Below, one piece after another: positions 42,485-53,571 of a stretch of 64,000 bases of DNA. The stretch covers positions 1 through 64,000 of the forward strand of contig CAMWSS010000006.1 of assembly GCA_947177035.1 (NCBI GenBank), given 5' to 3'. Position 1 is the stretch's first letter; each line of letters begins with the position of its first letter. The DNA comes from an uncultured Porphyromonadaceae bacterium (lineage in GTDB: Bacteria > Bacteroidota > Bacteroidia > Bacteroidales > Muribaculaceae). Under the pieces are notes generated by a model, which made no database searches, had not been told where the DNA came from, and saw nothing but the letters and a program-made list of their open reading frames with translations. The translations under genes and the position numbers were made by a program.

Positions 42485-43060
42485 TCAGAGTATGCGACGG
42501 GCTCCGATGAACCGTCTGGAGTAATATGCTTCATCGAGACGCGACACCGTGATGCCAAGCCTATGGGTGGAGTGAATGAAACGCACGATACCGGAGTCAG
42601 GATCACGGTCTATGACCATCCCAACATGACCGACACGTCCAAGATCGGCCGCACGTCCTGAGAAAAACACAAGATCGCCCATACGAAGATCTTTTTCTTC
42701 GACTGGGGTGCCCTGGCGGTATTGATCACGAGATGACGCTCCAAGCCGGATTCCGACTGTTTTAAACACATAGCCCGTGAATCCGGAGCAATCGAATCCT
42801 TTGGGTGTCTTTCCGCCCCGTCTGTATGGCAGCCCCATGAACGAAGAGGCATAATTCACCAGAATGTGCGGTGTTATTGCTTTTGACAGGTCTGAGCGTA
42901 ACCACGGGAAAAGCTCGGCTTCCTGCTCAAAAGTTTTGTCTTCTATCACACACACTCCATCCGGGCTGTCAAAATCATCGGCAAGAAGAGTGTCGGTCGG
43001 CAAATCAGTATTATTGCCGACCGACAGAGTCAAGATTGTTAGTAAAAGCGTGGTAATCAC
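42485..43060 (-). CDS. NlpC/P60 (C40) family cell-wall peptidase
   Basis: A 191-aa protein with a short signal peptide (1-15) and one NlpC/P60 domain (about 65-190). Catalytic C91 (FDCSGF), H145 (VGHVGMV) and H163 (FIHSTH). These enzymes cut D-Glu to diamino-acid bonds in wall peptides. It shares four bases with thiL and is the last gene of the sppA operon. Confidence 0.93.
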   Translation of the reverse strand: MITTLLLTILTLSVGNNTDLPTDTLLADDFDSPDGVCVIEDKTFEQEAELFPWLRSDLSKAITPHILVNYASSFMGLPYRRGGKTPKGFDCSGFTGYVFKTVGIRLGASSRDQYRQGTPVEEKDLRMGDLVFFSGRAADLGRVGHVGMVIDRDPDSGIVRFIHSTHRLGITVSRLDEAYYSRRFIGARRIL

Positions 43061-44091
43061 AGATGTGTAAATCCTTGGGCTTTGAGCTGAATTTCCTCGT
43101 CGTTACGTCCAACAAGCACACATCCGAGTTCCTGTCGCGTGATGTGACCAATGAGTTTGACGCCTTTCATTTTTTCTATTTTCTGCAGGTCTGTCAGCGG
43201 CACTGTGAAAAGAAGCTCATAGTCTTCACCGCCATTCAGGGCGGCAGTGACCAGATTCATGTTCAGTTCTTCTGCCATTACAGCGGTCTGGTAGTCTATC
43301 GGAATCCTGTCTTCATACACACGGCATCCGACACCCGAGGCTTTGCAGATATGAAGCAGCTCTGACGACAACCCGTCGCTAACGTCGATCATCGACGTCG
43401 GCACGATTCCAGCGTCGTGCAGATCCTTGACAATGTCACGCCTTGCTTCCGGTTTGAGCTGACGCTCCACCAGATATTCCTTACCGGCGAAATCAGGCGT
43501 GAAGTCCGGCTGTCCGGCCGATGCCGTTTTCTCTCGTTCAAGCACCTGCAGACCCATATATGCCGCGCCAAGATCTCCGCTCACGCAGATCAGGTCGGTG
43601 TCTTTCGCACCGCTTCGCAGTGTGACATCCGACGCTTTCGCCGTCCCCATACAGGTTATGGATATGACCAGGCCGGAGCGCGAAGACGTTGTGTCACCTC
43701 CGACAAGATCGACGCCATAGATGCCACATGCCAGTTTTATGCCTTCGTAAAGTTCTTCAAGATGCTCCACGGTAAAACGCTTGCTGACGCCCAGGCCGAC
43801 AGTGATCTGACGCGGAGTGCCGTTCATTGCGTATATATCGGAGAAGTTGACAACCGCAGCCTTGTAGCCCAGATGCTTCAGCGGCACATATGTCAAGTCA
43901 AAATGCACACCTTCAAGCAGCATGTCGGTAGTTACCAGCACCCGGGTGTCGTTTTCGGCGACATATTGCATTACGGCGGCATCGTCGCCGACCGCAGTCA
44001 GGGTGGATGGATCACCAGCTTTTACGCCCGTCGTGAGTCTGTCGATCAAGCCGAATTCACCCAGCTGGGATATTTCAGTCTCTTCTGCCAT
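43057..44091 (-). CDS. thiL: Thiamine-monophosphate kinase
   Basis: A 344-aa enzyme that makes thiamine diphosphate, the last step of vitamin B1 synthesis. It shows GEFGLIDRL, VGDDAAVMQY, TTDMLLEGVHFDL (metal and ATP site), NFSDIYAMNG, VGGDTTSS and NGGEDYELLFTV. Ten bases after punA, four-base overlap with the NlpC gene. Confidence 0.96.
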   Translation of the reverse strand: MAEETEISQLGEFGLIDRLTTGVKAGDPSTLTAVGDDAAVMQYVAENDTRVLVTTDMLLEGVHFDLTYVPLKHLGYKAAVVNFSDIYAMNGTPRQITVGLGVSKRFTVEHLEELYEGIKLACGIYGVDLVGGDTTSSRSGLVISITCMGTAKASDVTLRSGAKDTDLICVSGDLGAAYMGLQVLEREKTASAGQPDFTPDFAGKEYLVERQLKPEARRDIVKDLHDAGIVPTSMIDVSDGLSSELLHICKASGVGCRVYEDRIPIDYQTAVMAEELNMNLVTAALNGGEDYELLFTVPLTDLQKIEKMKGVKLIGHITRQELGCVLVGRNDEEIQLKAQGFTHL

Positions 44092-44100
44092 GGTTGACGG

Positions 44101-44937
44101 TTATTCTTCAAAACGTGAAACCAGTTCGCGCATGATCTCCATCATACGAGGCTGAGCCGCTTCGGCCGCACGCTGCACGTCTTCATGAGTGGCCACTTCC
44201 ACGATGCCTTCCACTCCAAGGTCTGTGATGACGCTGACGCCAAACACTTCCATGCCTCCGTGGCGGGCAACGATGACTTCAGGCACAGTGCTCATTCCGA
44301 CAGCATCTCCTCCGATGCGACGGAAGTATCGGTATTCGGCCGGAGTTTCAAACGTCGGGCCTTGAGTGCCGACATACACACCCTGCTTCACCCGGATGCC
44401 TTTTTCTTTGGCAATGTCAAGAGCATGATCGATCAGGCGCTTTGAATATGCCTCGCTCATGTCAGGGAAACGAGTGCCCAGTTCAGGGAAATTTTTACCA
44501 CGCAGCGGGTGTTCCGGGAAGAGGTTGATATGGTCGTTGATGATCATTATCTCACCGATCTGGAATTCAGGATTCATACCGCCGGCAGCATTGCTGACAA
44601 AGAGAGTCTTGACGCCAAGCGCCTTCATGACGCGCACAGGAAACGTCACCTGCTTCATGTCGTAACCCTCATAATAGTGGAAACGTCCCTGCATGCCCAT
44701 GACTGCTTTTCCGCCAAGGGTGCCGATGATCAGATTGCCACTGTGGCCTTCAACCGTGGAAACCGGAAAATTCGGAATTTCGGAGTAGGGGATATATTGC
44801 TTGTTTTCGATATGATCCACAAGAGCACCAAGACCTGTGCCAAGTATTATGGCAGTACGAGGCATCGGACCGTTGACACAACCGCGGATATAATCTGCGG
44901 TTTCATTGATTCTGATGAGTAAATCTTCTGATTTCAT
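44101..44937 (-). CDS. punA: Purine-nucleoside phosphorylase
   Basis: A 278-aa trimeric-type PNP cleaving inosine or guanosine with phosphate. Marks: ILGTGLGALVDHI, VEGHSGNLIIGTLGG, FVSNAAGGMNPEF, GVYVGTQGPTFETPAEYR, and GMSTVPEVIVARHGGMEV. Nine bases after lpxK, in the sppA-lpxK-punA-thiL order common in Bacteroidales. Confidence 0.96.
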   Translation of the reverse strand: MKSEDLLIRINETADYIRGCVNGPMPRTAIILGTGLGALVDHIENKQYIPYSEIPNFPVSTVEGHSGNLIIGTLGGKAVMGMQGRFHYYEGYDMKQVTFPVRVMKALGVKTLFVSNAAGGMNPEFQIGEIMIINDHINLFPEHPLRGKNFPELGTRFPDMSEAYSKRLIDHALDIAKEKGIRVKQGVYVGTQGPTFETPAEYRYFRRIGGDAVGMSTVPEVIVARHGGMEVFGVSVITDLGVEGIVEVATHEDVQRAAEAAQPRMMEIMRELVSRFEE

Positions 44938-44946
44938 AGATGGGAA

Positions 44947-46071
44947 TTATTTTTGATTATGTTTAGAGAGAGCGTGAATAAGAGTATTTTCAAAATCATC
45001 GGATCCGGCAGAGTTTTCAGATGCAGGATTCGGAATAAATGACACTTTTATAGGCTGATAGAACATACGTGACCGCAATTCTTTCGGCATATTCTTTATC
45101 GCGCTCAGACGCATCGCGTCTTTTTCGGTAGTTACGATGAAGGTGCGCTGCGGATCAGGCATTGAGAGCAGACGTTGTCTGATCAGCAATATGTCTTCTT
45201 TATTGAAGTTGTGATGATCAGGAAAAACCAGTGCTTTCACCTTGGCCCTGAAGCTGCGCAGATGTTTGATAAAGGGCCGCGGATTTGCCACTCCCGCAAC
45301 CGCGAGAATGTAATCCTGCTCACCGAGTGCGTTGAAAAACGGCGTGGAGATCGCTTCTGAAGGGAAAAGAGGACGGAGCGGCCCATAGAGATATTTGGTG
45401 AAGTAAAGCTTCTGCCACGGTTGCAGGTTAAGACGTTTGACAAAGATGCGGTAGTCCATCGGTCTCATCTCAGCCGGGCATTTGGTCACAATTACCATGT
45501 CGGCGCGCTGGATAGATGCCGCCGATTCGCGCAGATGTCCGGCAGGCATCACGGAATCATTGTAGACCGGCCTTGAGTGCTCGGTCAAGACAATGGCCAC
45601 TGTCGGTCTGACATAGCGGTGCTGGAAAGCATCGTCCAATATGACCAGATTGATCGATGGATCTATGACCCGAAGTTCGTCAATGCCCTTGCAGCGGTCT
45701 TCACACACAGCCACCGTTACATGCTTGCCATATTTCCGATAGATCTGATATGGCTCATCTCCGATTTCACGCGGTCCGGTTTTGTCGGAAGCGAGCACAA
45801 ATCCGCTGGTCTTTCGGTTATAGCCACGTGACAACACCGCAATGTGAAAACGATAGTGAAGAAGCTCCACCAGATATTCCGTATGAGGAGTTTTTCCTGT
45901 GCCTCCAACCGCTATGTTACCGACTACAAGCACAGGAATGTCAAACTTGCGCTGTGAAAGAATTCCGATGTCAAACATCTTGTTGCGCGTGCCTGTAATA
46001 GCCCCATAAGCCATCGACAGCGGCTTAAGGAGCAACGTTTTAAGCAATGGATTTACGCTCTTGTTTGACAT
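44947..46071 (-). CDS. lpxK: Tetraacyldisaccharide 4'-kinase
   Basis: A 374-aa membrane-bound kinase that adds the 4'-phosphate to the lipid A precursor. The P-loop NIAVGGTGKTPHTEYL, SRGYNRKTSGFV, and DDAFQHRYVRP are typical LpxK. The N-terminal helix (about 8-25) anchors it to the inner membrane. 25 bp after sppA. Confidence 0.95.
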   Translation of the reverse strand: MSNKSVNPLLKTLLLKPLSMAYGAITGTRNKMFDIGILSQRKFDIPVLVVGNIAVGGTGKTPHTEYLVELLHYRFHIAVLSRGYNRKTSGFVLASDKTGPREIGDEPYQIYRKYGKHVTVAVCEDRCKGIDELRVIDPSINLVILDDAFQHRYVRPTVAIVLTEHSRPVYNDSVMPAGHLRESAASIQRADMVIVTKCPAEMRPMDYRIFVKRLNLQPWQKLYFTKYLYGPLRPLFPSEAISTPFFNALGEQDYILAVAGVANPRPFIKHLRSFRAKVKALVFPDHHNFNKEDILLIRQRLLSMPDPQRTFIVTTEKDAMRLSAIKNMPKELRSRMFYQPIKVSFIPNPASENSAGSDDFENTLIHALSKHNQK

Positions 46072-46096: not shown

Positions 46097-47890
46097 TTAA
46101 TTGATGACTATGTCTTCCATCCGGCACTGCACACGCGGAGCCTGACGGAGCCATGACACGCGCTGCATCAATCGGAGTGTTTCACGATCCATGCCGGTGG
46201 CGTTCACCAGCTCGTCCATTTCCAGCAGCTCCATCCACCATTTTTCCTGATTGCGGGGATATGATTCCACTGAATATTTGTCAATGCCAAGATCGGCAGC
46301 CATTGCCAGAATGGCTGAATGCAGGGAGCCTATACTGTCCACCAGTCCGATGCTCTGAGCGAGCGCGCCATCCCAGACGCGACCTTCGGCGATCATCTTG
46401 ATAGAATCCTGGCTCATGTGGCGGCCTTCGGCACAGCGTTTTGTGAAAGTATCATAACCACGTTCAATGTAGCTCTGCATTTTGTTGCGCTGACTCTCAG
46501 TCATCGGAGTGATGATAGACGGGAAATTGCCGTTTTTGTTGGTCTGTACGGTCGCAGTGTTGACACCGAGCTTGTCCGTGAGCAGACCGTTGATCTCAGG
46601 GATCATGCCGAAAATTCCTATCGAACCGGTTATAGTGGCCGACTGGGCAAAAATCTTATCTGCGCCACATGAAATATAGTAACCGCCGGATGCAGCCACA
46701 TCGCCCATCGACACGTAAAACGGCAATCCTGTTTCCGATTTGAAACGTTCAAGGGCTTCCCAGATCTGTTCGGAAGCGAACGCACTGCCACCAGGCGAAT
46801 TGACGCGGAGAATCAGTCCGGCCAGACGATCTGAATCTTCAATGAGATTTTCGATTTCACTGACCATGTCATTTCCGATTATGCCGGATTTTCCATTGTC
46901 TGAAATTTCACCCTCAGCATAAAGCACAGCGATCACGTTACTGTCATGTCGGGCCGTGGCGACTTCAGGCAGATATGAATAATCCGTCAGATCAACAGCA
47001 GAGATATAGTCATTGATCGATATGGTTTTAACATCCGCGAATTTTTCTTTGTCGACCATTTCGGCAATGTGCTTTTCAGCCTGATGCCTATAGCCTATAG
47101 CCGAGACCGCGCCAAGCGCCTTGGCTGAATCGGCCGACATGGTAAAAAGCAGATCGTCAGCCCATCCGTCGACCTGGGCAGGGGTCACCTTGCGGTTTTC
47201 GGCAATGCGGTCCTTAACGGCATTCCATATGGAATTCATATAGACCTCCTGCTGCATCCGTGAAGCGGGACTCATGTCTTTAAGTATATATGGTTCGACA
47301 GCGCTTTTGAATGTTCCGACCCGGAGAACCTGCATTTTCACTCCAAGTTTGTCGAGCAGTCCGGTATAGAACATTGTTGTTGCCGACAGGCCGTGAACGT
47401 CTACCGCTCCCAGAGGATTCAGCCAAAGTTCGGTCGAACCGCTGACTGCATAATAGTTGCCCTGTGTATATGAATCCGCATATGAGACGATCCATTTGTC
47501 AGGACGTGACGCAAAATAGCGCAGCGCTTCATCAATCGCTTGAAAGGAGGCAATGCCGGCAACAGCACCATTGCACTCCACGTATATTCCCTCGATTCTG
47601 GAATCATGGGCGGCTCGATAGATCGCGGCTGTGATCTGCCCGAGCGAACGCCGGTCGGTCACATTGCCCGACATCACATCAGAAACCGATGGAGTACCCT
47701 TGATTTCGCAGATCTCACCGCTCATGTCAAACACCAGAACACTGTGCTTGCCAACTCCGGTTGTTTTCTTGTCAGACGACGACATAACCGCAGAGACTAT
47801 TCCGGTGACAAAAATCACACCGAAAAGGAGCAGCGACAGCCATATGGCAGCCATTGATCCGAGAAACGTTAGAAAAAAGCGCTTTATCAT
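46097..47890 (-). CDS. sppA: Signal peptide peptidase SppA (67K type)
   Basis: A 597-aa inner-membrane protease that degrades cleaved signal peptides. One TM helix (7-30). Catalytic dyad K195 (VGTFKSAVEPY) and S401 (GDVAASGGYY), each from one of the two repeats, as in the E. coli enzyme. 13 bp after the threonine-synthase-like gene; leads the conserved sppA-lpxK-punA-thiL set. Confidence 0.95.
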   Translation of the reverse strand: MIKRFFLTFLGSMAAIWLSLLLFGVIFVTGIVSAVMSSSDKKTTGVGKHSVLVFDMSGEICEIKGTPSVSDVMSGNVTDRRSLGQITAAIYRAAHDSRIEGIYVECNGAVAGIASFQAIDEALRYFASRPDKWIVSYADSYTQGNYYAVSGSTELWLNPLGAVDVHGLSATTMFYTGLLDKLGVKMQVLRVGTFKSAVEPYILKDMSPASRMQQEVYMNSIWNAVKDRIAENRKVTPAQVDGWADDLLFTMSADSAKALGAVSAIGYRHQAEKHIAEMVDKEKFADVKTISINDYISAVDLTDYSYLPEVATARHDSNVIAVLYAEGEISDNGKSGIIGNDMVSEIENLIEDSDRLAGLILRVNSPGGSAFASEQIWEALERFKSETGLPFYVSMGDVAASGGYYISCGADKIFAQSATITGSIGIFGMIPEINGLLTDKLGVNTATVQTNKNGNFPSIITPMTESQRNKMQSYIERGYDTFTKRCAEGRHMSQDSIKMIAEGRVWDGALAQSIGLVDSIGSLHSAILAMAADLGIDKYSVESYPRNQEKWWMELLEMDELVNATGMDRETLRLMQRVSWLRQAPRVQCRMEDIVIN

Positions 47891-47903: not shown

Positions 47904-48665
47904 TTATTTAACTGATATTGAAGACGAGAGGATCCGCATAACGGCGTCGACGGTAGGAGCTACGCGCAACGAACGCTTACTGCCTATCCTGGCGGATTTC
48001 ATCCGCGGTGCGGCCGTCGGCTGGGCAGATACAAGAACCGGCGGCTCGCAACGAAGCCCAAGGTTGCGGGGGATCTCGTATGCCCGGAGCATTGCCGCCG
48101 AATTCGCTTCGGGCGACTTGTCGGGCGATATCTGCGGATGGGTGGCGCAATAGATTGCCACGGCGACTCTCACGGCAGAGGCGGCCGCATTGTGCAATGT
48201 GCACACCATGGCAAACCGCTCAAGCTCACTGCACAGGTGCAGGCAATCGGTGGCGGAGCCTTGAACGTCAATGGCCCGCGCTCCGACAACGTCGCCCATC
48301 ATGCCCTTTGGCATGATCACATTCAGATTTTCGCATCGGCCGGAAAGAGCGTCGACCAGATAGAAATCTTCAGGTTCGACAGCACACAGCAGAGTAGGCG
48401 CCTGGAGCGGAGCGCCCGCATAGGCCCACAGCGCAGCAACGAACGCAGACTCGGCTTCAGGCGAAAACGGTTGCGTGTCGCTCAGCGAAGTATCGACCAG
48501 ACGCTTGAGGGCATCGGCCTCTATTTCATCGCCAAGAAGCACATCGAGAACCACATAGGCAATCTCGCGGAACGTCATGTCGGAAGCATTTTTGAAAAAT
48601 GCTTCCGGCAGCTTGTGCACCCGCTGCTGTCTGATGTCGCTATGATTTATGAGATAGGGGTGCAT
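47904..48665 (-). CDS. Shrunken threonine-synthase-like protein, probable pseudoenzyme
   Basis: A 253-aa protein resembling Bacteroidetes threonine synthase (ThrC, about 430 aa) but reduced. Residues 18-67 follow the ThrC N-terminal domain (KLPEAFFK, MTFREIAYVVLDVLLGDEIE). Residues 113-175 follow its middle part (NLNVIMPKG, ARAIDVQGSATDCL, MVCTLHNAAASAVRVAVA), and PPVLVSAQPTAA recalls the C-terminal VFLETAHPAK. The block with the PLP lysine (FKD) and the SGDTG phosphate loop are absent, so catalysis is not expected. It overlaps the aspartokinase gene by 19 bp. The frame is clean, with no stop or shift, suggesting a maintained protein. The match is from memory of the family, not a search. Confidence 0.6.
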   Translation of the reverse strand: MHPYLINHSDIRQQRVHKLPEAFFKNASDMTFREIAYVVLDVLLGDEIEADALKRLVDTSLSDTQPFSPEAESAFVAALWAYAGAPLQAPTLLCAVEPEDFYLVDALSGRCENLNVIMPKGMMGDVVGARAIDVQGSATDCLHLCSELERFAMVCTLHNAAASAVRVAVAIYCATHPQISPDKSPEANSAAMLRAYEIPRNLGLRCEPPVLVSAQPTAAPRMKSARIGSKRSLRVAPTVDAVMRILSSSISVK

Positions 48666-50014
48666 GACGGAAAGAAAGTGGAATGAACCGCCCGCAGTGC
48701 TTCATGGAGCGATTGCTCCGGAACCATGCAGGCCACAGTAGTCGAAGAATTCATGCGAGGAGGAGCTGGCACCGGTATTCCGCATCCATTGAGCACATTG
48801 ACCAACTTTTTGTCAATGTCGGTCATGCCGTCAAGCGCATATCCAACCAGCGCAATAGTGCTCAAACCGGTTACCGGCTGTATGTTTTCGATTTCGCCGG
48901 TTGTCAGTTCATCGGCAAGTTCGTCAGAAAGGATGGCCATCGCGCTTTCAACGTCAGAGCCACGAAGACCAAAAGTGCCGTTTTCAGGCGAAGCCAAGAA
49001 GATGTCGACGCCATTGCGCGACAACGAATTGAAAACACGGTCAAAGTTCACCGGTCTGCTACCGGATATGCGTATGATAGCCGTTGGCGTCATTGAGCTG
49101 AGTCCGGCCATCCTTGTGGCGAGCACCTCGCCGTCGGCAATGATCGTGCCCGGAGCCTGCGCATTGAATGTGTTTTTTATCACAATCGGAATGTTGCGGT
49201 TGAACACCGGGTAGATGGTCGGCGAATACACCACTTTGGCCCCGAAATTGCAAAGCTCCATGGCTTCGACAAATGACATCCGGTCAATCACTTCGGCGTT
49301 TTTAACAATTCTCGGATCGGCCGTCATAAAGCCATCGACGTCAGTCCAGATTTCCAGAATTTCGGCGCCAAGCTCAGCTGCGATGATGGCCGCGGTGTAA
49401 TCGCTGCCGCCACGTCCGAGATTAGTTATCTTGCCAGAGTCATCATCACGGGCGATAAAACCAGGCACGACTATGGTCCGATGTCTTTTCAGTTCCGGAG
49501 CCACGATTTCGGCAATCAGCCTGGAGGTGGATTCTTGAGCGAGAACATGTTTGCCAAAACGGGATCTGGTGCGGATAAAATCAGGGGAATAGCACAGAGC
49601 GGCGTCTGACAGCATATTGCTGACGATCACACACGACATCCTTTCGCCATAGCTCACGATAAGATCCATGGTGCGCGACGTCAGTTCGCCCAGCAAAGCT
49701 ATGGCATCGAACAGAGTCGACAGCTGCTGCAACAGGGTGTCAACTTTTTCCATGACTTCCGCATGACGCGCGGCATCGGTCACGACTCCATCAATCACAG
49801 AGTGGTGACGCTCCTTCATCGCCTGATGAAGTTCTATATAGGTGTTGTCGCCAACGGAGGCACGACGGGCACAATCCATCAGGCAGTCTGTTATGCCGCC
49901 CAATGCCGAAACCGTAACAATACATTCCGTCTGCTGACTCTCAACAATAGCTTTCACATTACGCAGACTGTCTATCGAGCCAACGGATGTGCCGCCAAAT
50001 TTGAGTACTTTCAT
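48647..50014 (-). CDS. Aspartokinase, ThrA-type, lacking homoserine dehydrogenase
   Basis: A 455-aa protein phosphorylating aspartate, the first step to Thr, Met and Lys. The kinase part is intact: MKVLKFGGTSVGS, TVSALGGITDCL, NLGRGGSDYTAA, EIWTDVDGFMTADPRI, MELCNFGAKVVYSPTIYPV. Two ACT domains (about 310-455, with VDIFLASPENGTFGLRG and LSTIALVG) could bind an amino-acid effector. Its closest pattern is the N-terminal half of bifunctional ThrA, but it ends at LRAVHSTFF plus nine residues, just where the dehydrogenase would begin. -7 box TAAGTTTG at 50059-50066; first gene of the sppA operon. Confidence 0.9.
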   Translation of the reverse strand: MKVLKFGGTSVGSIDSLRNVKAIVESQQTECIVTVSALGGITDCLMDCARRASVGDNTYIELHQAMKERHHSVIDGVVTDAARHAEVMEKVDTLLQQLSTLFDAIALLGELTSRTMDLIVSYGERMSCVIVSNMLSDAALCYSPDFIRTRSRFGKHVLAQESTSRLIAEIVAPELKRHRTIVVPGFIARDDDSGKITNLGRGGSDYTAAIIAAELGAEILEIWTDVDGFMTADPRIVKNAEVIDRMSFVEAMELCNFGAKVVYSPTIYPVFNRNIPIVIKNTFNAQAPGTIIADGEVLATRMAGLSSMTPTAIIRISGSRPVNFDRVFNSLSRNGVDIFLASPENGTFGLRGSDVESAMAILSDELADELTTGEIENIQPVTGLSTIALVGYALDGMTDIDKKLVNVLNGCGIPVPAPPRMNSSTTVACMVPEQSLHEALRAVHSTFFPSCTPIS

Positions 50015-50058: not shown

Positions 50059-50066
50059 CAAACTTA
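50059..50066 (-). promoter_or_regulatory. -7 box of the aspartokinase-sppA operon
   Basis: TAAGTTTG on the minus strand, 44 bp before the aspartokinase start. No TTTG is found at the right distance, so the -33 box is weak. Confidence 0.5.
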
Positions 50067-50092: not shown

Positions 50093-50371
50093 TTAAAAAG
50101 TGAATTTTTCCAAAGTGAGAGTGCCAAGCTGCTCCATTTCGCCCACAAGGCTTTTGAAATGTTCTGTCTCCATATGTTTTGCCAACGACTCTTCATCCTG
50201 CCATGTTTCACAAATGAACAGACGGGCATCTGATGTAAGTGCGGAAAAAGCTTCATATGAAACCACTCCGGCATCGTTGCGTGAATACTCCTCCAGCCTG
50301 ACGGCTGCATCGATGAGTGCTTGCCGGTTATCGGGATTTCCGGCATTTATAAAAACGTTAAGACGTATCAT
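50093..50371 (-). CDS. ABM-domain monooxygenase-like protein
   Basis: A 92-aa single antibiotic-biosynthesis-monooxygenase domain: LNVFINAGNPDNRQALIDA, DAGVVSYEAF, LFICETWQDEESLAKHMETE, HFKSLVGEM. Members such as YgiN handle quinols; many have unknown substrates. Last gene of the endA operon, 10 bp after mrp. Confidence 0.88.
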   Translation of the reverse strand: MIRLNVFINAGNPDNRQALIDAAVRLEEYSRNDAGVVSYEAFSALTSDARLFICETWQDEESLAKHMETEHFKSLVGEMEQLGTLTLEKFTF

Positions 50372-52248: not shown

Positions 52249-53571
52249 TTATTTGAACAATACGATTTTTGCGACTCCACTTGATGATGTGACGACAAGA
52301 TATGCACCTCCAGGCATGGATGAAATGTCAATTTCTGCATATTTTCCCGCACCGACGTCCGTCAGAGCCACGCGAACGCCAGAAGTGTTGAACATCGAAA
52401 CTGTCCCAAGCTCAGCCAGTTCAGATCTGACATACAAAACATTGCCGTCGACAGACACAGTGATATATGGCGAATCAGCCAGTTTGGAATCAATGTCGGT
52501 GGTCGACGCGATATAGTCCGAATGTCTCACAATTCGGAAGTCCTGCCATTGCGATGCTTCACTGAAGCGTTCAGCAAGATCATCGGCCACAACAAGCGTG
52601 ACAGCACCAGAATCAATTCCACGCCACACTCCATCGCCAAGTTCAGGAATGCCGGTGAGTGCTGACACGTTGAAATCAGACAGAGCATCCCAGTCAGCCA
52701 TAGCTCCTGAGGCAAAGAACGTCACTGACGCAGGCAACGAGAATGTCGCCACCTGCCTTAATCCGGCCAACGAGTATTCGTCAAAAGTCTCGACTCCATG
52801 CGACAGAGCGAGATTCTCGACGGCACCGTCTTCCAGCATAGCGCCACGACCTAACGTCTTTACGGCCGACGGAATGACTACTTCGGTCAAAGAATGGCAA
52901 TGAGCCAGTGACCATGGACCGATTTCAGTGCATTGCGCAAGAGCGTCAACATTCAATTCCTGCAAAGACGTGCACCCTTCAAAGGCTCCGGCCGGAAGCC
53001 TGTCTAATGAATTGCCCGGAGCAAAGACCACTCTTCGAAGTGATGTGCAGTTGGCAAACGTGCGAAGACCAAGTTGCTCCAATGAAGCAGGCAGCTCAAC
53101 AGACTCCAGACCTTCACACCGCAAAAAGGCATAGTCAGCAATCGCCACAACGCCATCAGGCACCAGGACTGACCGGATGCCGGATCCGGAAAATGCACCT
53201 GTGCCGATCGTGGTCAGCGTCTGAGGAAGAACCACCGATTCGAGATTTTTCATACCGACAAAGGAGTAGGAGGGCAGTTGCGCCTGAGCCGAACTTCGCA
53301 ATCCGGAAAAAGGAAGCTCCTTGCCAGAGTATGCAACAATCGAACAACCTGAGATGTCAAGCTGCGATATATGAGACATTCTGTCGGCGATAAACGCAAA
53401 ATCAGACGCATCAAGAACTCCTGTCACCTTAAGGACTTGTGCTGTGGTGTCGGCACCGACAGCGTCAGCCAGTCCGCCGGCCCGGACGCCTGTAACGTCT
53501 GCGGCATATGCATTGCAGACAGTCAATCCTGCAAAAAGCGATGAAAATATGGCGATTCTATTCATTTTCAA
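52249..53571 (-). CDS. Secreted leucine-rich-repeat protein (BspA/LRR_5 type)
   Basis: A 440-aa exported protein. Signal peptide 1-23; about ten BspA-type repeats of roughly 23 residues (about 60-350; for example NLESVVLPQTLTTIGTGAF, GLESVELPASLEQLGLRTF). The end (VSVDGNVLYVRSELAELGTV..GGAYLVVTSSSGVAKIVLF) resembles the C-terminal sorting-type domain of Bacteroidetes secreted proteins. Such repeats often bind host proteins or other cells. It lies in an operon with an XRE-S24 regulator. Confidence 0.88.
   Translation of the reverse strand: MKMNRIAIFSSLFAGLTVCNAYAADVTGVRAGGLADAVGADTTAQVLKVTGVLDASDFAFIADRMSHISQLDISGCSIVAYSGKELPFSGLRSSAQAQLPSYSFVGMKNLESVVLPQTLTTIGTGAFSGSGIRSVLVPDGVVAIADYAFLRCEGLESVELPASLEQLGLRTFANCTSLRRVVFAPGNSLDRLPAGAFEGCTSLQELNVDALAQCTEIGPWSLAHCHSLTEVVIPSAVKTLGRGAMLEDGAVENLALSHGVETFDEYSLAGLRQVATFSLPASVTFFASGAMADWDALSDFNVSALTGIPELGDGVWRGIDSGAVTLVVADDLAERFSEASQWQDFRIVRHSDYIASTTDIDSKLADSPYITVSVDGNVLYVRSELAELGTVSMFNTSGVRVALTDVGAGKYAEIDISSMPGGAYLVVTSSSGVAKIVLFK

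Follow-up and report, generated by a model that had tools for sequence, protein, structure and literature searches.

Why would a genome keep a shrunken threonine synthase-like frame, without the lysine that holds pyridoxal phosphate (PLP), overlapping the end of an aspartokinase gene that itself lacks its usual dehydrogenase half? Such a pair lies in a 64,000-nucleotide stretch of DNA, here called the window (positions 1 to 64,000 of contig CAMWSS010000006.1, assembly GCA_947177035.1), from an uncultured Porphyromonadaceae bacterium of the Muribaculaceae. Its genome, G000, is 99.8% complete, and 11 genomes of its genus, g1, were examined. The two open frames, of 455 and 253 amino acids (aa), have 19 bp in common, as an original prediction made from the letters of the window had stated. 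The 253-aa protein (pseudo-ThrC) is a threonine synthase (ThrC) from which internal deletions have removed the catalytic lysine block and the cofactor loop, and we propose that it may now serve as a noncatalytic partner of the aspartokinase (AK) encoded by the overlapping gene, a reading that we favor tentatively and hold at somewhat less than an even chance.

48647..50014, minus strand: AK gene, 455 aa, monofunctional and ThrA derived (open frame, alignment, Pfam, tree)
47904..48665, minus strand: pseudo-ThrC gene, 253 aa, ThrC derived (open frame, alignment, fold and profile matches)
48647..48665, minus strand: 19-bp overlap of the AK end with the pseudo-ThrC start

Ancestry and lost active site of pseudo-ThrC

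Homology of the 253-aa protein with ThrC is supported by both profile and fold. Its Pfam Thr_synth_N match (20.2 bits) falls below the cutoff of 25; 12 of 13 pseudo-ThrC members match this family at E values up to 10 (best, 9.3 × 10−5). A PDB sequence search with a nine-row profile returned only weak matches, to yeast ThrC (E = 0.05) and M. tuberculosis ThrC (E = 0.067), along with two histone rows. Searching the contig collection for pseudo-ThrC gave two loci, one of them a ThrC of ordinary length. A fold comparison with threonine synthase, set beforehand as a possible refuter, produced a match. By these comparisons the protein is a threonine synthase descendant, and its predicted fold is ThrC-like.

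The protein divides into an N-terminal domain (residues ~17 to 61), a reduced small domain (~91 to 205), a variable linker (~206 to 230), and a C-terminal helix (~233 to 248), in agreement with the predicted ThrC N-terminal domain and reduced core without lysine block or SGDTG loop. Compared with ThrC of the E. coli and yeast type (Thr_synth_N plus PLP fold type II, ~437 aa), the protein has lost the bulk of the large domain, and an NCBIfam scan found no family up to an E value of 1. The PLP lysine block (GPTxxFKD) is deleted in all 11 aligned g1-type sequences, and the SGDTG phosphate-binding loop is gone from the same 11, its column now reading LLCAVEPED or similar. At its end the protein keeps a helix (RVAPTVDAVMRIL) that can be aligned to the C-terminal helix of ThrC; the losses are thus internal, and a plain C-terminal truncation is ruled out. 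Because it has neither the lysine for PLP nor the SGDTG loop, we do not class the protein as a threonine synthase, and we infer that it has lost PLP binding. An enzyme that still uses PLP for some altered chemistry would fit the recognizable fold-type II scaffold and ThrC-like small domain, but the loss of both motifs and of most of the large domain makes it very improbable.

The former active-site cleft could instead have acquired a new function independent of AK. All 13 members of 13 have Cys94 and Cys155, at positions where the ThrC compared carries other residues; Glu97 and His158 are conserved in at least 90% of members, and all four residues fall close to where the PLP loop and the SxNS motif would be. 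Together they might form a site for a metal or a small ligand, as in a sensor or carrier. We consider this distinctly unlikely: member P0011 has neither Glu97 nor His158, the likewise invariant Cys141 also occurs in ordinary ThrC, which makes the cysteine pattern partly ancestral, and the candidate site has no known ligand.

An aspartokinase with an intact kinase core

The AK stops where a dehydrogenase half should begin, as had been predicted. Its best NCBIfam match is the AK half of bifunctional ThrA (PRK09436, 366 bits, positions 1 to 462 of 819). Its C terminus, ...VHSTFFPSCTPIS, lies at the linker between the ACT and homoserine dehydrogenase (HSDH) regions, where ThrA relatives read ...IHDSFFLSETQVLNLF... 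and run on into the HSDH domain; Pfam found no HSDH domain match in the AK open reading frame (ORF). A quick tree that included LysC groups the AK with ThrA, with ten g1 AKs forming one clade, and rules out a LysC-type enzyme.

The original prediction called the catalytic and ACT parts intact, which is correct for the first of these. The window AK resembles the AK half of ThrA in its intact kinase motifs (KFGGTS, NLGRGGSDYTAA, and WTDVDGFMTADPR; AA_kinase, 134.7 bits) and differs from bifunctional ThrA in having no HSDH half and a degraded ACT motif. The motif GMVGI ... VSQASSENN, whose GMVGI...VSQASSE portion we take to bind effectors in aspartokinases, is absent from 10 of 10 g1 AKs and kept, with small variants, in 10 aligned ThrAs. 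Pfam ACT_9 scores 146.5 bits in two stretches in the ThrA of G011 versus 28.7 bits in one stretch in the window AK; two congeneric AKs give 45.9 bits in two stretches (G136) and 19.4 bits in one (G041). With this motif degraded in all 10 congeneric AKs read, the suggestion of an amino acid-sensing kinase is not supported.

Predicted loss of threonine synthesis

No intact thrC, thrB, or bifunctional thrA was found in the window's genome. None of the 11 g1 genomes has a TIGR00260 (thrC) match over the cutoff (10 have weaker matches), and none matches TIGR02535 (thrB). The two PF00291 (PALP) loci of the window's genome are, as we read their motifs, presumably IlvA- and TrpB-like. A threonine aldolase route was rejected, the best PF01212 match in this genome being partial and, at 27.2 bits, barely above the 27-bit cutoff; four g15 genomes have longer PF01212 matches of ~70 to 95 bits. 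Since the window's genome yielded no thrC, no thrB, and no strong threonine aldolase, the lineage is predicted to be auxotrophic for threonine. A side activity of GlyA may be a source of the amino acid.

The genome also has LysC, and its sole HSDH match falls in a stand-alone ORF of 396 aa with which contig C34 begins. Each of the 11 g1 genomes has one HSDH, in an open frame of 396 to 487 aa; that of G041 adjoins a gene that we take, from its motifs, to be metX-like.

Retention and purifying selection

The pair is more than a chance arrangement, as it also occurs in two other g1 genomes, which brings pseudo-ThrC to 3 of 11 (G000, G096, and G136). G096 has a 19-bp overlap as well; for G136, alignment places the start 4 bp past the AK stop. 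The AK locus was found in 10 of the 11 g1 genomes (the exception, G110, is 88% complete), and the second refuter set beforehand failed too, as no full-length thrC or thrA occupies this site at any of the 10 AK loci read. A family-wide search for pseudo-ThrC left 147 of 397 genomes without a match; at most six candidates were scored per genome, so some misses are expected, and among the eight unmatched congeners this limit applies to G041 and G061. A search of 5.8 billion proteins returned nine clusters, or 11 with an extended profile and the window's own counted in. Their proteins are ~37 to 98% identical to the window protein and 230 to 263 aa long, two of them without the first 29 residues.

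Between G000 and G096, the ratio of nonsynonymous to synonymous divergence (dN/dS; pairwise Nei-Gojobori, in which pairs with saturated dS [nan] give no ratio) is 0.15 for pseudo-ThrC (bootstrap, 0.09 to 0.25), with 0.03 for codons 8 to 90 and 0.11 for codons 91 to 205. The ratios given here do not depend on two imprecise gene ends in the comparison, a G136 pseudo-ThrC shortened by one codon at its start and a G096 lpxK lengthened by one codon. In simulations of substitutions only, an unconstrained ORF stayed open in 0.2% of cases at the dS distance of the pair and in 2.9% at half that distance, or in 7.4% and 25% at the raw nucleotide divergence. From the dN/dS of the parts and these simulations, purifying selection acts on the N-terminal part of pseudo-ThrC, and the linker is close to free. 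With the fold match, the missing lysine and SGDTG loop, the lack of an intact thrC, and retention in relatives, this selection bears out the earlier proposal of a maintained thr operon remnant, a pseudoenzyme derived from ThrC.

That pseudo-ThrC is merely a frame left open by chance, or an error of assembly, has next to no probability. A 182-aa antisense ORF does overlap the gene and is open in G096 too, but pseudo-ThrC recurs in the independent assemblies of G096 and G136 and in 11 protein clusters, selection is visible at the codon level, and the protein has fold and profile matches; we rejected this explanation on the relatives, clusters, and selection. The antisense ORF itself (window positions 48138 to 48686, plus strand) crosses the AK/pseudo-ThrC junction and is probably a by-product of codon usage.

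Lysine-lacking ThrC proteins in other genera

A reading of pseudo-ThrC as a partner draws on the longer lysine-lacking ThrCs that other genera of this family have, mostly right behind thrA. We compared 80 ThrC-like loci, a nonrandom set of top family-search matches, picks spread over genera, and targeted picks from g15, g16, and g17, with neighboring genes labeled by our own motif patterns. Lysine is present in the catalytic column of 61 and missing from 19, where it is replaced by Asn in 11 (8/8 in g15, 2/2 in g17, and G065), Tyr in 4 (4/4 in g16), and Arg in 1 (G240) or deleted (the 3 of g1). Directly upstream of 17 of the 19 lies thrA or its AK, with overlaps of 1 to 19 bp in 6 of these; a thrB-type ORF is directly upstream of 23 of the 61 lysine-bearing loci (21 by script label and 2 by their start). 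Among 31 genomes tested, thrB exceeds the cutoff in 3 (G002, G011, and G133). The lysine-lacking ThrCs outside g1 (g15, g16, g17, G065, and G240) resemble pseudo-ThrC in their replaced lysine, open frame, and usual place behind thrA and differ from it in being far less reduced, at 342 to 434 aa. Across the family, ThrC-like loci grade from ~440 aa with lysine and SGDTG to 253 aa.

Among the lysine-lacking ThrCs of g15, two pairs have dN/dS values of 0.031 and 0.058 and a third pair has 0.18, at dS > 1, and a g16 pair gives 0.073 at dS 1.9 (dS exceeds 1 in several g15 and g16 pairs). Lysine-bearing pairs give 0.022 to 0.028 in g3 and g13 and 0.068 to 0.092 in g18 and g9. HSDH open frames of fused size (at least 811 aa) occur in 7 of 8 g15, 5 of 7 g16, and 1 of 2 g17 genomes; in G133 this frame and the dead ThrC lie on different contigs. 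A quick ThrC tree calls for at least four lysine-loss changes, two of them forced by strong branches; the long branches of g1 and g16 meet in it, and we claim no count.

Several other loci of the family depart from the ordinary arrangement. In G039 (L063, 2 to 1294), a ThrA that begins beyond the stretch read retains its AK and ACT parts, but its HSDH half has become a ~190-aa tail that the Pfam HSDH models do not recognize; this shrunken pseudo-HSDH stands before a lysine-lacking ThrC, and the genome has a separate 409-aa HSDH. Three g18 AKs (L130, L131, and L132) are ~300 aa long and end just after the kinase domain, with no ACT or HSDH part visible in the sequence; they stand directly before a lysine-bearing ThrC-like gene with no thrB between, and L133 and L134 are similar. 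In G133 (L135 and L136), C6 encodes a lysine-lacking ThrC, and the 6.1-kb contig C114 holds thrA-thrB-thrC in full; these genes may have been regained by transfer, or the contig may be a contaminant. G022 of g22 (L024/L095) encodes a lysine-bearing ThrC-like protein with TSGDSGG, has no thrB over the cutoff, and has HSDH only of stand-alone size; this protein possibly acts on a different phospho-substrate.

Gene neighborhood

The AK and pseudo-ThrC genes lead a predicted run of seven same-strand genes, which we recovered with gaps of at most 25 bp or overlaps and with Pfam-backed names. The five further genes and an upstream motif are as follows.

46097..47890, minus strand: sppA (signal peptide peptidase), 13 bp downstream of pseudo-ThrC (Pfam)
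44947..46071, minus strand: lpxK (Pfam)
44101..44937, minus strand: punA-type purine nucleoside phosphorylase (Pfam)
43057..44091, minus strand: thiL-type AIRS protein (Pfam)
42485..43060, minus strand: NlpC/P60 peptidase (Pfam)
50059..50066, minus strand: TAnnTTTG motif upstream of AK, found in 9 of 9 congeneric upstream stretches, a count without a chance control

We take the TAnnTTTG motif to resemble the −7 promoter element of Bacteroidota. The proposed tie to envelope genes is weak: seven congeners without the pseudoenzyme still have AK, sppA, lpxK, punA, and thiL side by side, and in G002, 1 of 11 stretches read from other genera, lpxK-punA-thiL lies ~6 kb from an ordinary thrA-thrB-thrC operon. 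Given this arrangement and the persistence of the run, an inherited neighborhood may suffice to explain the adjacency, and we judged a functional link to envelope genes unnecessary.

Two other genes of the window lie nearby. A 92-aa ABM-domain protein (50093 to 50371, minus strand; 47.8 bits) is encoded between an mrp-type ATPase gene and AK. A BspA-type leucine-rich repeat protein (52249 to 53571, minus strand) has a weak, subthreshold Por secretion tail and evolves fast (dN/dS of 0.195 versus G096).

Discussion

HisZ is a noncatalytic protein that descends from histidyl-tRNA synthetase. We propose it as the nearest functional parallel to pseudo-ThrC, by analogy; it was the only useful one that a literature search for parallels yielded. 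Under the partner reading, threonine synthesis would have been lost in the lineage, and the AK would be retained to supply methionine and diaminopimelate synthesis with a separate HSDH. Overlapping translation would yield AK and pseudo-ThrC in similar amounts, and the retained ThrC N-terminal domain would bind the AK in a HisZ-like stabilizing or tuning role. One report describes HisZ as a regulatory subunit of short-form HisG, which catalyzes the first step of histidine synthesis (PMC9734150). The proposed likeness is that of a regulatory protein partnering the first enzyme of a pathway; unlike HisZ, pseudo-ThrC is a putative partner, has ThrC as its ancestor, and is missing from 7 of 10 congeners.

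The steps may be ordered as follows: threonine synthesis is lost, thrB goes first, and thrC dies and stays behind thrA; HSDH would then be dropped where a separate one exists, after which thrC shrinks and finally disappears. Together these look like stages in a single process, in an order taken from comparing living genomes.

Several observations weigh against a partner role. Adjacency to thrA is weak evidence of contact because it is inherited from the operon; four lysine-bearing g9 ThrC loci also lie directly behind thrA, and 2 of the 19 lysine-lacking loci (G133 C6 and G240) lack an immediately upstream thrA within the stretch read. Of the 10 congeners with AK, 7 lack pseudo-ThrC and have sppA as the gene right after AK; the kinase can thus do without pseudo-ThrC. 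The protein as a whole evolves faster than its neighbors (dN/dS of 0.083 for AK and 0.037 for sppA), and from codon 206 to the end its ratio reaches 0.53 (0.21 to 1.35), leaving the linker nearly free.

This complete loss from congeners that kept AK and sppA, the raised dN/dS, and the graded lengths of ThrC-like proteins in the family speak for the main rival, namely a remnant in slow decay under weak residual selection. In that case thrC would be shrinking stepwise after loss of the pathway, its frame kept by operon context (translational coupling to sppA) or by a weak leftover role. We regard this as possible but rather unlikely: the N-terminal 83 codons evolve at a dN/dS of 0.03, as in sppA; proteins of the 11 clusters still measure 230 to 263 aa at identities down to ~37 to 42%; and lysine-lacking ThrCs in one three-genome group of g15 have ratios of 0.03 to 0.06. 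Our tentative preference remains the partner role. Its extension to the whole family is doubtful and, on balance, unlikely: loss of threonine synthesis would repeatedly have made ThrC a noncatalytic subunit translationally coupled to AK, and in g1 this subunit would have been trimmed to 253 residues and have taken over the regulation of a kinase with a decayed ACT sensor.

Pseudoenzymes often derive from gene copies. In this case an enzyme of the pathway itself was, it appears, converted where it stood once the pathway had gone, and pseudo-ThrC is an unusual pseudoenzyme for this apparent conversion with its intermediates preserved. A literature search of titles and abstract starts, with most subscription journals and preprints outside its coverage, returned no description of such a case, and passages of PMC12627464 hold nothing on a shrunken ThrC beside a lone AK.

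For annotation, a ThrC-like match in this family is no proof of threonine prototrophy, even above the NCBIfam thrC cutoff. In G016 (L110/L062), a ThrC-like protein with Asn in place of the lysine passes it at 178.9 versus 167.1 bits, so automated annotation would say threonine synthase.

Sister genera hold what appear to be the intermediates: a full ThrC, a lysine-lacking ThrC of 342 to 434 aa mostly behind ThrA, the 253-aa remnant behind a lone AK, and AK alone. Their preservation makes possible a stepwise test of when a dead enzyme stays worth keeping.
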